DNA of 64,000 nt from Chitinophagales bacterium (GTDB lineage: Bacteria; Bacteroidota; Bacteroidia; Chitinophagales; JADIYW01), in the NCBI GenBank assembly GCA_023957245.1, contig JAMLHJ010000007.1, positions 124,001-188,000 on the forward strand. Reading direction: 5' to 3'. The notes below the pieces were generated by a model. The model saw nothing but the letters and a program-made list of their open reading frames with translations, did not search any database and was not told the DNA's origin. Positions 1,382 to 5,435 of the stretch are shown in pieces (within the stretch, counting starts at the first letter, position 1; every line of letters starts with the position of its first letter). A program made the position numbers and the translations under genes.

Positions 1382-2572
1382 TTAAAAATAGTATCCTACA
1401 TTAATATTGAATCTAAAACCCCAAGGATCTTTTGTTGCTCCATTTGAAAATGCATTTGTCCATTCTGCGCCCAACCAAGGATGGTTTTTCCCAAATGCAA
1501 AATCTACAAACGTATATATAGGTCCAGTAGTAATCATAGCACCAGAAACGTTCATGATACTATTGTCAAATTTTTTATTGAACTTTTGCATATATCCAAA
1601 GTCGTTATAAACTTTAATGCTTTGAAGTATTTTTTTATCAAACGGGAAAGTATAAGATAGGCCAAGTGTGTATGTGTTGGCTTTAGAAGCTATAAAGTAG
1701 GGTGCATCGTAGGCTGTCAATGCGATGATATCTTTGTTCTCTTCATTGGGAGATTTTGGATTATATTGGTAAGTGATGATTTGGGATTTTAAGGCAAATC
1801 TTTTTACATTCATTTCATAATGAACTGCTGCTGCATAACTTCCTCCTGTTTTTCTTGTATCTAGATTGTATAATCCACCAACTTTTACAGATGCACCAAT
1901 CTGATGAAATATATTTGTTTTATGATGTTTATAGACAAATTTTATGTTGCCTTGATTGACTTCTTTATTGCGAATTTTTACACCATTACCTAAATCAATT
2001 GAACCTACATCATAAGAATATCTATTGTTAGCAGCATCTGAATTATCACCAAAGGATAACTCTTCGGCATTTTTAAAGAAGGCTACATTGATATCAAATT
2101 TATCACTATTATAATTGTATCTAAGTCCCATATCATGGTCTTCTTCTAAGCCCAAATAGTAGTTTATACTTAGAAACCAACAGTTTGAATTGTAATTGGT
2201 AATGCCAAATGGAACCTGAGTTAATCCTAATTGTAATCCATGCTTTGGGTTAATATGATATCCTATCCAACCATTTCTGAGCATTCCTCCTCCTAAATCT
2301 CTATCATATATTCTGTATTCAGCATTGAGTTCTAAGTTTTTATAACTTGCCTCAGCATTTAACCTAAATAGCTCATAGCCAAAATCTCCACCTCGCTTGA
2401 CTTGTTCTTTTTTCCAATCAGATAGGTTATAATTGAATCTTAATGCACCACCAATTTTTACTTTTGGCTTTTCTTTTACTTGCGTTTCTATGCTATCGAC
2501 CTTTTCTGCTTGTATTTCTTTGGACAATAGAAGAGTCATTGATAGTAGAAAAATATATTTTTTACTTATCAT
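1382..2572 (-). CDS. Outer-membrane beta-barrel porin of the sulfur-scavenging operon
   Basis: The 396-residue product starts with a signal peptide (MISKKYIFLLSMTLLLSKEIQA) and continues as alternating short aromatic-rich strands with many Gly, Tyr and Asn, ending in GFRFNINVGYYF. A C-terminal aromatic is typical of outer-membrane barrels. It resembles phosphate-selective or anion porins of the O/P type, but the substrate cannot be read from the sequence. It is the last gene of a minus-strand series behind an SfnG-like monooxygenase and two flavin reductases, about 60 bases after the preceding stop, so it may admit organosulfur anions through the outer membrane. That role is inferred from context alone. 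Confidence 0.72.
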   Translation of the reverse strand: MISKKYIFLLSMTLLLSKEIQAEKVDSIETQVKEKPKVKIGGALRFNYNLSDWKKEQVKRGGDFGYELFRLNAEASYKNLELNAEYRIYDRDLGGGMLRNGWIGYHINPKHGLQLGLTQVPFGITNYNSNCWFLSINYYLGLEEDHDMGLRYNYNSDKFDINVAFFKNAEELSFGDNSDAANNRYSYDVGSIDLGNGVKIRNKEVNQGNIKFVYKHHKTNIFHQIGASVKVGGLYNLDTRKTGGSYAAAVHYEMNVKRFALKSQIITYQYNPKSPNEENKDIIALTAYDAPYFIASKANTYTLGLSYTFPFDKKILQSIKVYNDFGYMQKFNKKFDNSIMNVSGAMITTGPIYTFVDFAFGKNHPWLGAEWTNAFSNGATKDPWGFRFNINVGYYF

Positions 2573-2631: not shown

Positions 2632-3123
2632 TTATATCGTTACAAAATTCTTTTGGTGATACAATAGCCCTGGTCTTTCCTCTGTTCTTTTTGCTTCTAC
2701 TACTTGACCTACCAATATTATATGGTCGCCTACTTTAATAATTTCTTTCTTTGTACAGATGAGAACCGAAGTTATATCAGAAATAATAGGTGTGTTGTGT
2801 TCTGTTTCGTGATAAGAAATATTTGAAAATTGTTCTTCTGAGGTCAAGCCTTTTTGAGCAAGATGCTTGCAAATTGAAATGTGATTTTCATTGGGAAAAT
2901 GTACTGCAAAGTGAGTTGTATTTTGAATTACCTCACAAAATTGTGAGCCACAATTAATATTAAAAGTAATCAAAGGTGGCTCCATAGAATGACATGTAAA
3001 TGAGCTAATGGTAACAGCTCTTTTTAATCCATTATGTTCAGCAGTGATAATAGTGAGTGGTACAGGGATTTCACTCATAATGCTTTTTATTTGTTCACAG
3101 ATTTTAGGCTGAATACTTATCAT
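2632..3123 (-). CDS. Flavin reductase domain protein (FMN-binding split barrel)
   Basis: A 163-residue protein matching the flavin reductase/HpaC-type split-barrel family: an N-terminal region with VPLTIITAEHNGLKRAVTISSFT, the typical substrate-loop segment SMEPPLITFNINCGSQ, and a C-terminal GDHIILVGQVVEAKR strand. These enzymes reduce FMN or FAD with NAD(P)H and hand the reduced flavin to a partner monooxygenase. The partner here is almost certainly the SfnG-like protein encoded two genes upstream. It is separated by seven bases from the preceding gene, so the two are co-transcribed. Having two different flavin reductases in one operon is somewhat redundant; one may favour another monooxygenase elsewhere. 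Confidence 0.82.
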   Translation of the reverse strand: MISIQPKICEQIKSIMSEIPVPLTIITAEHNGLKRAVTISSFTCHSMEPPLITFNINCGSQFCEVIQNTTHFAVHFPNENHISICKHLAQKGLTSEEQFSNISYHETEHNTPIISDITSVLICTKKEIIKVGDHIILVGQVVEAKRTEERPGLLYHQKNFVTI

Positions 3124-3130
3124 GATTAGT

Positions 3131-3703
3131 TTAAAATTGAGGTCCTAGTTGATTTAGAAATTTACTTTTATCTAAGAATGAGCTCAGTTCAACTACTGAT
3201 TTTCCTAGTGTTTCGAGACGTGTAATAATCTTAGAATCATTAATTTGATTGCCTTCATATTGAGAACTATTGACATATACTCCACCTACTAGGTATGCTC
3301 CAAAAAATGAGGCTATAGGGCCTAGTTCTTGATTGATTAATAAATAATGGTGGTCAGTAGCTCCTGTGGCAATAAAACCTATTGGACGATTTTCAAGTGG
3401 TGCTTTATCTGATTGCCATTTTCCTCTAGGGATTAAATCGAAAAGGTTTTTCAATACTCCTGAATAACTTCCTCTATATGCCGGTGTGCCAATAATAAAA
3501 GCATCACTTTCAATGATTTTTTGAAGTAAAATTGATTCAACTAGTTTTCTGCTATCAGCAGTATCTATTTTATAATCAGCTAAAGAAACGATTTCTGTTT
3601 CTATTCCATACTCATTTTGTGCAGCTTGGATAGCAATCTCAATAGCTGTTTGTGTTTTGGAAGGACTGGATACACTTCCTACTATTCCTAATAATTTACT
3701 CAT
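3131..3703 (-). CDS. NADPH-dependent FMN reductase (SsuE/MsuE/SfnF-like)
   Basis: The 190-residue protein has a flavodoxin-like fold of the NADPH-dependent FMN reductase family. The N-terminus MSKLLGIVGSVSSPSKTQTA is the phosphate-binding loop, IIGTPAYRGSYSGVLKNLFD is the hallmark flavin-contact segment, and NRPIGFIATGATDHHYLL follows as in SsuE and MsuE. Such enzymes supply FMNH2 to two-component alkanesulfonate or sulfone monooxygenases. The gene follows the SfnG-like monooxygenase by 67 bases and precedes a second flavin reductase, so reductant supply to that oxygenase is the likely job. Length and motifs are normal. Which subfamily (SsuE, MsuE or SfnF) cannot be fixed by eye. Confidence 0.88.
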   Translation of the reverse strand: MSKLLGIVGSVSSPSKTQTAIEIAIQAAQNEYGIETEIVSLADYKIDTADSRKLVESILLQKIIESDAFIIGTPAYRGSYSGVLKNLFDLIPRGKWQSDKAPLENRPIGFIATGATDHHYLLINQELGPIASFFGAYLVGGVYVNSSQYEGNQINDSKIITRLETLGKSVVELSSFLDKSKFLNQLGPQF

Positions 3704-3770: not shown

Positions 3771-4784
3771 TTATACGGTTAAAATTGAATTGCTTATTGG
3801 TTCTGCTTTTCTGACTTCAGTAATAATATCTTTTCCAAATCTTGCTAAGTCTTCTGAATAGTGTAAAAATCCAGCTAAGACAATATCTACTCCTACAGCG
3901 TCTAGTTGTCTAATTCTTTCTACCACCTGCTCTTGAGTTCCGATAAGTCCAGTTTTGAATCCGTCATTGTATTGTATCAAATCATTAAAATCTGAATCTG
4001 ACCACATGCCATATCCTTCAGGTGAAGATTTACCTGCTTGTCTTACAGATTCTTTAAAAGCTTCAACAGAATCTTTAGATGCATTTCTAATAATGTTTTC
4101 CAATTCTTGCTTAGCTTCTTGCTCTGTATCTCTAGCTATGACAAAACCATTGACACCGACTTTTGGTGCTTGTCTGCCATATTGATCAGCGTATTCACGC
4201 ACTTTATCAACGATACTTTTTATCTTTTCCAAGCTACCACCATTGACAAATATTACATCTGCTGATTTTGCTGCCATTCTCAATGCTCTGTCTGAGCCTC
4301 CACCAATAAAAAGTGTGGGTTGGGTTGTAGGTTTGGGTTCAGAAGGAGCCTTGTCGATTCTGTAAAAGCGACCATTGTAACTAAATTCTTTTTCTGTCCA
4401 TAATCCTCTTAATACGTCAATAAATTCTTCACTTCTTGCATATCTTTCATCATGCTCTAACCATGGCTCCCCAAATTTTGTGAACTCATCTTTCAACCAA
4501 CCACTTACAATATTTAAGTGAAATCTTCCATTGCTAATATGCTCGGCAGTAGCTACGAAATTTGCGATTGCAGCAGGATGCCAAAGTCCTGGGTGAATAG
4601 CACCTATAAGGTTTAATGTATCTGTATTGGCAGCAAGTGCATTGGCAACACTGAGTGCTTCTAATTGAATATTGGCATTGTAACTTCCAATAAATCTTGC
4701 TTGTGCCAATCCATATTTAAAGCCTACTTGCTCGGCAGATTGTGCTAATTTCTTGTTATACTGATAAGTCCAGTCTGTTTTCAT
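3771..4784 (-). CDS. sfnG: FMNH2-dependent dimethylsulfone monooxygenase SfnG-like, N-terminus cut off by an in-frame stop
   Basis: The readable frame from ATG 4782-4784 gives 337 residues of a bacterial luciferase-like TIM barrel. Segments such as FHLNIVSGWLKDEFTKFGEP, LEHDERYARSEEFIDVLRGL and LIQYNDGFKTGLIGTQEQV closely follow SfnG, the enzyme that oxidises dimethylsulfone to methanesulfinate using FMNH2. Family members begin with a strand of the type FAYWVPN before this point. That strand is encoded upstream here, in frame from ATG 4848-4850, but codon 7 (expected Tyr) is TAA. The internal ATG has no good upstream initiation context, so the gene is probably inactive or the base is a sequencing error. 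Leader peptide and promoter lie upstream, two flavin reductases downstream. Confidence 0.85.
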   Translation of the reverse strand: MKTDWTYQYNKKLAQSAEQVGFKYGLAQARFIGSYNANIQLEALSVANALAANTDTLNLIGAIHPGLWHPAAIANFVATAEHISNGRFHLNIVSGWLKDEFTKFGEPWLEHDERYARSEEFIDVLRGLWTEKEFSYNGRFYRIDKAPSEPKPTTQPTLFIGGGSDRALRMAAKSADVIFVNGGSLEKIKSIVDKVREYADQYGRQAPKVGVNGFVIARDTEQEAKQELENIIRNASKDSVEAFKESVRQAGKSSPEGYGMWSDSDFNDLIQYNDGFKTGLIGTQEQVVERIRQLDAVGVDIVLAGFLHYSEDLARFGKDIITEVRKAEPISNSILTV

Positions 4785-4850
4785 TGGCCAATTTGTAATT
4801 GCTAGCCCTCCGCTGATGTTTGGTACCCATTACGCGAATTGTGTTTTCAT
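4785..4850 (-). pseudogene. sfnG: Original N-terminal 22 codons of sfnG, with nonsense codon TAA at 4830-4832
   Basis: Translating from ATG 4848-4850 gives MKTQFA, stop, WVPNISGGLAITNWP, then runs in frame into the Met at 4784. The family consensus has FAYWVPN at this place, so a single T/C-to-A change in a Tyr codon explains the stop. No ATG, GTG or TTG lies in frame between the TAA and the Met at 4784. The bases before ATG 4850 are A/T-rich as before other Bacteroidota starts. TAA ends many normal genes in this window, so recoding of TAA to an amino acid is not supported. Confidence 0.85.
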
Positions 4851-4930
4851 AATTTTGAATTGTTTAAATGATTTTAGAGAAAAATTTATAGTGTATTAAT
4901 AATAAATAAATTATTAATATTATTTGTTTG

Positions 4931-4968
4931 AAATAAAAATAGATTGATAGCTTTTTTTCAAAGCTCAA
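4931..4968 (-). terminator. Putative attenuator hairpin between leader peptide and sfnG
   Basis: Read on the minus strand, TTGAGCTTT (4960-4968) can pair with AAAGCT (4948-4953) and CAA (4944-4946), leaving two bases bulged, and is followed by the U-rich tract CTATTTTTATTT (4931-4942). The stem is weak, with few G-C pairs, and starts about 42 bases after the leader peptide's stop codon. Its place between a cysteine-coding leader and the sulfur operon is where a transcription attenuator would be expected. This is an inference; no alternative anti-terminator pairing was found that is clearly convincing. Confidence 0.35.
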
Positions 4969-5009
4969 TTAAGAATATAAATTCTATTGAAGAGGTGCAG
5001 AACCTGCTA

Positions 5010-5129
5010 TTAGCACATAGCGCTACAACAGCAACACATATAACAAGCACAACAACAATCACCAGCAATCAAAAGATTGTTATGGGAATTGAAATTGATG
5101 TTTGTTTTTAAAACGAATGTGTTTTTCAT
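5010..5129 (-). CDS. Cysteine-tail leader peptide (39 residues) of the sulfur-scavenging operon
   Basis: From ATG 5127-5129 to TAA 5010-5012 an open frame encodes MKNTFVLKTNINFNSHNN, then LLIAGD, then CCCACYMCCCCSAMC. Nine of the last 15 residues are cysteine, and the frame ends right after the final Cys codon. It lies about 160 bases ahead of the SfnG-like gene and about 50 bases after a good Bacteroidota promoter. Runs of one amino acid's codons just before a stop are the hallmark of attenuation leader peptides, and cysteine-tail upstream ORFs are known in Actinobacteria. The likely job is to sense charged tRNA-Cys: ribosomes would stall when cysteine is scarce and allow expression of the organosulfur genes downstream. 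The peptide itself need not have a function. Confidence 0.75.
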   Translation of the reverse strand: MKNTFVLKTNINFNSHNNLLIAGDCCCACYMCCCCSAMC

Positions 5130-5161
5130 GCTATTGTTATTTAATTTCCTTTTTGAAAAGG

Positions 5162-5178
5162 GATAGGTTTTTCCTATC
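5162..5178 (-). promoter_or_regulatory. Hairpin or small palindrome at the predicted 5' end of the leader transcript
   Basis: GATAGG (5162-5167) and CCTATC (5173-5178) form a 6-pair stem with a 5-base loop. It falls just after the expected transcription start, so it is either a stabilising 5' stem in the leader RNA or a small operator for a repressor. Nothing in the sequence decides between these. Confidence 0.35.
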
Positions 5179-5186
5179 AGTTGAAA

Positions 5187-5216
5187 CAAATTTATGACTA
5201 TATTTTATTTTTCAAA
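5187..5216 (-). promoter_or_regulatory. Bacteroidota-type promoter of the cysteine-leader/sfnG operon
   Basis: On the minus strand TTTG (5213-5216) is followed after 18 bases by TAAATTTG (5187-5194), an exact match to the Bacteroidota consensus TTTG ... TANNTTTG. Transcription would start near 5180, about 50 bases before the leader peptide's ATG, so the leader peptide is inside the transcript. This is the best promoter in the window. Confidence 0.7.
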
Positions 5217-5435
5217 ATATTTTCCAATAAAAATTTTATTTTTTTTTTGATGACTTTAAATATTAGTTTGGAGTGATAGAAATGAGATTTGATATTATTA
5301 TCTTCTCTATGTTTCGTATTTCTATTCCAATTTTGCTTTTTTAGCTGCTATTTTTGAAGAAATAAAACTGTCTTTTCTTAATTATAATTTTACAGGAAAA
5401 TGTAAAGTTTTTTCTTTCTTAGAAAATGAAAAATG

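Follow-up and report, generated by a model that had tools for sequence, protein, structure and literature searches.

Does a short reading frame that ends in a run of cysteine codons, lying ahead of an operon for the use of organosulfur compounds, serve as a cysteine sensor for that operon, and by which route would it act? The question is raised by a locus in a 64-kb stretch of DNA (the window) from a 3.09-Mb Bacteroidota genome, for which an earlier note had proposed a leader peptide, a promoter and an attenuation switch devoted to sulfone use.

A cysteine-tail frame ahead of the sfnG operon

The frame and its tail are as follows:

5010..5129, minus strand: leader ORF, 39 codons plus stop (TAA 5012..5010), conserved in frame in the congeners G001 and G002
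5013..5057, minus strand: Cys tail of 15 codons at the end of the ORF, with 9 Cys and 2 Met; no other tail in the window and none in 60 shuffles is as rich in Cys

Translation of 5129..5010 on the minus strand gives MKNTFVLKTNINFNSHNNLLIAGDCCCACYMCCCCSAMC-stop, with the C-terminal end CCCACYMCCCCSAMC, and confirms the proposed 39-codon frame with Cys at nine of its last fifteen codons. When the 15-codon tails before every in-frame stop were compared on both strands of the 64-kb window, only that of the leader ORF contained at least 6 Cys, while the maximum in 60 order-2 Markov versions of the window was five. The ORF looks translated, judging from its sequence, and a short ORF with clustered cognate codons before a related operon is the arrangement of an amino-acid leader-peptide attenuator. 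We consider it likely that the 39-codon ORF acts in cis as a leader peptide sensing charged tRNA-Cys.

The genes behind the leader are:

3771..4850, minus strand: sfnG, dimethylsulfone monooxygenase (TIGR04021), with an in-frame TAA at 4832..4830
3131..3703, minus strand: MsuE/SsuE-like NADPH-FMN reductase (Pfam FMN_red; best NCBIfam match TIGR03566 MsuE, below cut-off)
2632..3123, minus strand: flavin reductase (PF01613)
1382..2572, minus strand: 396-aa protein with no Pfam or NCBIfam match, in the same order in G001

That this is an SfnG-type monooxygenase operon, as first proposed, is borne out by the match of SfnG to TIGR04021 (533.8 bits with the TAA read as Tyr; curated cut-off 382.95) and by the MsuE-like FMN reductase and flavin reductase that follow; the gene of the 396-aa protein is the probable last operon gene. 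The sfnG product is 92-94% identical to those of G002 and G001, with dN/dS of 0.03-0.04. Codon 7 of the window copy is the in-frame TAA, where both relatives have a Tyr codon, and the longest uninterrupted frame begins at 4784 and lacks the first 22 residues. Since the remainder of the gene is intact and strongly constrained, the TAA is either recent or an assembly error. As a consequence of this premature stop, sfnG output, and with it operon output, from the window copy may be impaired even with a working switch. In the MsuE-like reductase of the window five residues (YTGDT region) are absent that are present in both congeners. The G002 operon carries an extra 463-aa luciferase-like monooxygenase, NtaA/DmoA-type by sequence, between sfnG and the FMN reductase (L060:7384-8775).

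The leader is conserved in the genus

A leader precedes sfnG in both other species available from the genus, namely MKNTFFLKTNTDTIARHHHLLDACICCCICCMCCFMPMC and MKDTFVLKTGSDTITRPHYLLDDCMCCMCCMCCLMSMC (G001, G002). Both are in frame, lie 159-178 nt before sfnG and contain 8-9 Cys at shifted positions, so that leader and operon occur together in all three species (3/3). The dS of sfnG is 0.8-1.8 across the three and 1.3-1.8 between the window species and its relatives, which makes the window species the outgroup by dS. Over this distance the spacer between leader and sfnG has become poorly alignable, while the leader keeps its frame, its length and 8-9 Cys with in-frame indels, together with a conserved N-terminus, MKxTFxLKT. 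Frame, length and Cys number that are kept while positions change and the spacer diverges fit selection for codons rather than for a peptide fold. Absence of the Cys tail from relatives with the same operon had been named in advance as an observation that would speak against a leader; the tail is present in both congeners, and with the recurrence across Bacteroidota described below there is a strong case that the sfnG operon is preceded by a Cys-codon leader.

Outside the genus, no credible Cys leader was found near sfnG in 79 loci. On these 79 loci we rejected the view that sfnG is generally accompanied by a Cys leader; one Burkholderiales frame (L123) among them passed the crude Cys filter only. 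The leader is therefore tied to the lineage and not to sfnG.

Cysteine leaders recur before sulfur genes across Bacteroidota

We searched for related leaders in three ways. First, 150 genomes of the order were scanned for SAM-I riboswitches, with about 110 matches, and the downstream regions of about 90 were read. Cys-run leaders lie behind these riboswitches before an OsmC gene (G000, G001), cysH (G067, G057), an O-acetylhomoserine sulfhydrylase (OAHS) gene (G110, G114) and sfnG (G001, G002). The second search, with the pattern ATG(TGY)5 (M-C5) in 395 Bacteroidota genomes, returned 43 matches, and the reversed pattern returned 1. Thirty of the loci were read, and those that look like leaders stand ahead of genes for sulfite reductase, a DUF4395 protein, a PhyH dioxygenase and OAHS, the last with a SAM aptamer. 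The DUF4395 leader loci belong to a genus outside the window's class, and where reading was continued the DUF4395 gene is followed by OAHS, a regulator, cysK and cysE, the last three named from sequence rather than by family search. With (TGY)5TAR, 63 matches compared to about 30 for the reverse were obtained in 345 genomes of Bacteroidia. Among 50 of these that were read, 12 are intergenic and ATG-started, and nine of the 12 precede cysS (2), cysH (5), OAHS (1) or metX (1); the other three precede an OsmC gene, a PhyH gene and a gene with a CarboxypepD_reg domain. Most of the first-gene identities were checked against NCBIfam and Pfam. Several matches of the second and third patterns lay inside genes or had no suitable gene behind them and were discarded.

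The N-termini of the related leaders are unrelated; what these leaders have in common is no more than a Cys run and a sulfur gene that follows. A poly-Cys leader directly before the gene of the cysteine-tRNA ligase, cysS, is hard to explain except by sensing of tRNA-Cys charging. The proposed search for short Cys-run ORFs before sulfur genes across the phylum was successful for several cysteine, methionine and sulfur genes, and it removes the idea of a device dedicated to sulfone use or a one-off of this operon, as the same kind of leader stands before cysS, cysH, OAHS, metX and sulfite reductase. This suggests a Bacteroidota-wide class of predicted Cys leaders of which the sfnG leader is one instance. 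A Cys leader is not a general companion of cysH: among the 30 best cysH genes, two have one within 1.5 kb upstream, both in the window's order. Met codons look frequent near the Cys tract, from which we draw no conclusion because the M-C5 pattern itself selects for Met.

Three further observations were made at these loci. In the window's own genome (G000) and in the congener G001, an OsmC-family gene is preceded by a SAM-I riboswitch and an MMCCCCCC leader (L291/L307). The DUF4395 operon with its poly-Cys leader also contains a tRNA-Cys(GCA) gene, located between the DUF4395 gene and OAHS (L294:3881-3957 (minus), L276:776-852, L284:778-851). In one genus (f25 g84), a PhyH-family dioxygenase gene is preceded at about 53 nt by leaders of the form MSxKRNxFNF...MRMC6-9 (L267-L271; G343, G308, G449, G168, G172); by association with the leader, this dioxygenase may act in organosulfur or cysteine metabolism.

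Two layouts and the route at sfnG

The leaders fall into an internal layout, with the Cys tract followed by 10-15 further codons, and a tail layout, with the tract at or no more than 5 codons from the stop. At internal-tract loci the leader and the gene are separated by an intrinsic terminator (-16 to -22 kcal/mol at DUF4395, 4/4; -19.6 kcal/mol at sulfite reductase). The 14-bp DUF4395 terminator is 96% paired over 13 loci, with two pairs changed on both sides. In addition, the 3' arm of this terminator is complementary to TTCTGACA, which comes right after the Cys codons, and the competing TTCTGACA/TGTCAGAA helix is 96% paired compared to 24-38% when slid, with no double changes. With an intrinsic terminator and a competing helix, the DUF4395 leader is a textbook attenuator by its predicted structures, its antiterminator being deduced purely from complementarity; at sulfite reductase the terminator is likewise present. 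Loci with internal Cys tracts would thus use intrinsic-terminator attenuation.

The region between leader and sfnG contains the following elements:

4851..5009, minus strand: 159-nt spacer from leader stop to sfnG, rich in C and poor in G (C/G 2.33); candidate region for transmitting the signal
4972..4985, minus strand: small hairpin AGAAT-TTAT-ATTCT, with equivalents ACACT/AGTGT (G001) and ACAC/GTGT (G002); weak, three sequences only
4943..4969, minus strand: hairpin ATTGAGCTTT/AAAGC(TA)TCAAT, then CTATTTTTATTT; weakly terminator-like, with counterparts in G001 and G002, rejected by both terminator scans

No intrinsic terminator was found at the sfnG locus in two independent scans, and none comparably strong to those of the internal-tract loci at the tail-type loci. 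Folding with ribosome occlusion gave no switch at sfnG, which is weak as a negative because the same method reproduced none at the DUF4395 loci. Classical terminator attenuation is accordingly not visible at sfnG. It would require that the hairpin at 4969..4943 and its T-rich tail form the terminator and that a stalled ribosome favours an antiterminator. All three species do have a hairpin followed by T-rich sequence at corresponding positions, with differences that look compensatory, and true attenuators of this kind exist at the DUF4395 and sulfite reductase leaders; however, the sfnG stems are A-T-rich and 5-10 pairs long, with a displaced T tract, which together with the scans and the occlusion folding leaves this route unlikely.

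The composition of the spacer points elsewhere. Only 5% of the other 5' flanks in the window reach a C/G ratio of 2, compared to 2.33 for the sfnG spacer, and tail-type spacers in general have more C than G (17 representatives versus 77 SAM-controlled 5' regions without Cys leader, Mann-Whitney p ~1e-5). The C-rich, G-poor spacer fits loading of Rho, which a ribosome that stalls at the end of the leader would prevent, by analogy with tnaC; as evidence for Rho, composition is indirect. Pairing between Cys tract and spacer, as in translational attenuation, was rejected as a general feature, since no consistent signal was obtained over 27 loci (mean z -0.44) and the only outliers are two OAHS loci of one family and sulfite reductase. 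For the tail type the route would most likely be either Rho-dependent termination in the C-rich spacer, prevented by the stalled ribosome, or a translational effect like that of mycobacteria; that one of these two operates at sfnG appears probable.

Promoter block and tandem SAM-I riboswitch

Upstream of the leader two further elements were mapped:

5187..5216, minus strand: Bacteroidota-type promoter-like TTTG-N18-TAAATTTG, inside the block homologous to the relatives' promoter
5172..5226, minus strand: promoter block common to the window, G001 and G002, by local alignment

The consensus promoter claimed for 5187-5216 is present at this place, and its pattern counts for little, as eight occurrences in the window compared to 4.8 expected are near chance; a promoter by pattern alone was therefore rejected. 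We accept it because the block 5226..5172 is homologous in both relatives (alignment score 69 with G001, null maximum 46; 45 with G002, null maximum 34). The predicted -7 box (5194..5187) lies about 57 nt before the leader ATG, and the predicted mRNA is not leaderless.

In G001 and G002 a SAM-I riboswitch (RF00162) scores above the gathering score upstream of the leader (68.9 and 70.9 bits) and ends 9-12 nt before its ATG. The window contains no RF00162 match and no other Rfam element at gathering score; here promoter block and leader follow each other with the aptamer absent between them. At 5172..5130, where the relatives have the aptamer, the window shows GATAGG/CCTATC and CCTTTT/AAAAGG, a pair of small hairpins ahead of the leader. 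Three species do not distinguish loss in the window from gain in the relatives, and loss is favoured because the aptamer-leader pair is frequent elsewhere. A SAM aptamer precedes 15 of the 27 tabulated leaders, and in 12 of these 15 it ends 7-19 nt before the leader ATG. In contrast to a SAM-I riboswitch (S box) next to the enzyme gene, the element of G001, G002 and many related loci, which the window copy lacks, thus usually abuts the leader start codon. From this position, SAM would most likely control translation of the leader where the aptamer abuts the ATG. For the two relatives, such gating is put forward tentatively.

Absence of the aptamer also bears on whether the window leader is a decaying, functionless leftover of a lineage in which the SAM riboswitch was lost and sfnG stopped. 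The missing aptamer, the TAA at codon 7 and the 5-residue msuE deletion agree with decay, but the leader frame is intact with 9 Cys and the constraint on the rest of sfnG (dN/dS 0.03-0.04) makes the stop recent or an assembly error, so that we regard a leftover as rather improbable.

The peptide might instead be a functional small Cys-rich protein (metal-binding, redox or RiPP precursor). Such peptides exist, and the MKxTFxLKT N-terminus is conserved in the genus; yet the species all have 8-9 Cys but differ in where these lie and how they are spaced, related leaders have only the Cys run and the sulfur gene in common, and no maturation enzyme occurs among the operon genes examined. This makes a small protein very unlikely compared to a leader. 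Chance formation of the tail in an A+T-rich intergenic region, where TGT-rich repeats can arise, is negligible, being contradicted by conservation in three species at saturated synonymous divergence, by the 60 shuffles and by the phylum-wide recurrence before sulfur genes.

Discussion

Based on these data we propose the following mechanism for the tRNA-Cys-sensing leader at sfnG. The leader would be translated, and the ribosome would meet the Cys tail next to the stop codon. When Cys-tRNA is short, the ribosome would stall in the tail and the genes for SfnG, MsuE and the flavin reductase would be expressed, allowing sulfur to be drawn from dimethylsulfone-type compounds. With Cys-tRNA in ample supply, translation of the leader would be completed, the ribosome would leave and expression would fall. 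In the relatives, the SAM aptamer ending 9-12 nt before the leader AUG would gate leader translation as a second input. A nested two-input switch is conceivable, in which the SAM-I aptamer sets leader translation and Cys-tRNA charging sets stalling, so that one RNA integrates SAM and cysteine status. The window species might then be a natural variant with the SAM input absent and the cysteine input kept, which we suggest with similar reserve.

The statement that cysteine-tail leaders are known in Actinobacteria holds (PMC1262725, PMC4633059). Candidate actinobacterial leaders carry Cys-codon runs near the stop before cys and cbs genes without a conserved terminator, and Rho-dependent termination was proposed (Seliverstov 2005, PMC1262725). 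The sfnG leader resembles them in its Cys run near the stop before sulfur genes and in the lack of a terminator, while the Bacteroidota leaders extend the targets to cysS, metX, OAHS, sulfite reductase and sfnG and bring in two layouts and the SAM aptamer. Mycobacterial polycysteine uORFs have a C-terminal Cys cluster before sulfur or cysteine genes (Shell 2015, PMC4633059), a feature shared by the sfnG leader together with the lack of an obvious intrinsic terminator; cysteine-responsive attenuation in mycobacteria (Canestrari 2020) is termed translational in a passage of PMC13236596. They differ in their leaderless mRNAs, phylum, downstream genes and peptide sequence. To our knowledge, no SAM riboswitch is in tandem with them. 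By analogy, the sfnG leader may work like these uORFs; membership in their family is not claimed because the predicted mRNA is not leaderless.

Within Bacteroidota, attenuator leaders were noted in Flavobacterium psychrophilum (PMC9723704) and sORFs in 5' UTRs of Bacteroides thetaiotaomicron (PMC7366714). These reports likewise suggest leader-peptide attenuation in the phylum but contain no Cys leader in their main texts. In the open-access literature searched we found neither a Cys leader in Bacteroidota nor a SAM-plus-Cys tandem. Thus, while cysteine-directed attenuation is known from Actinobacteria, its predicted occurrence in Bacteroidota, often in tandem with a SAM riboswitch, is apparently undescribed.

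Taken together, the data suggest a widespread cysteine-starvation switch in Bacteroidota, placed before genes of the cysteine-tRNA ligase, sulfate reduction, methionine and organosulfur metabolism. If true, a phylum that is central in soil, aquatic and gut habitats would possess a cysteine sensor acting in cis, and there would be a sequence signature for finding cysteine-starvation genes, including those of OsmC, PhyH and DUF4395 proteins. The tandem with the SAM-I riboswitch would represent a stacked RNA logic gate that is directly testable.
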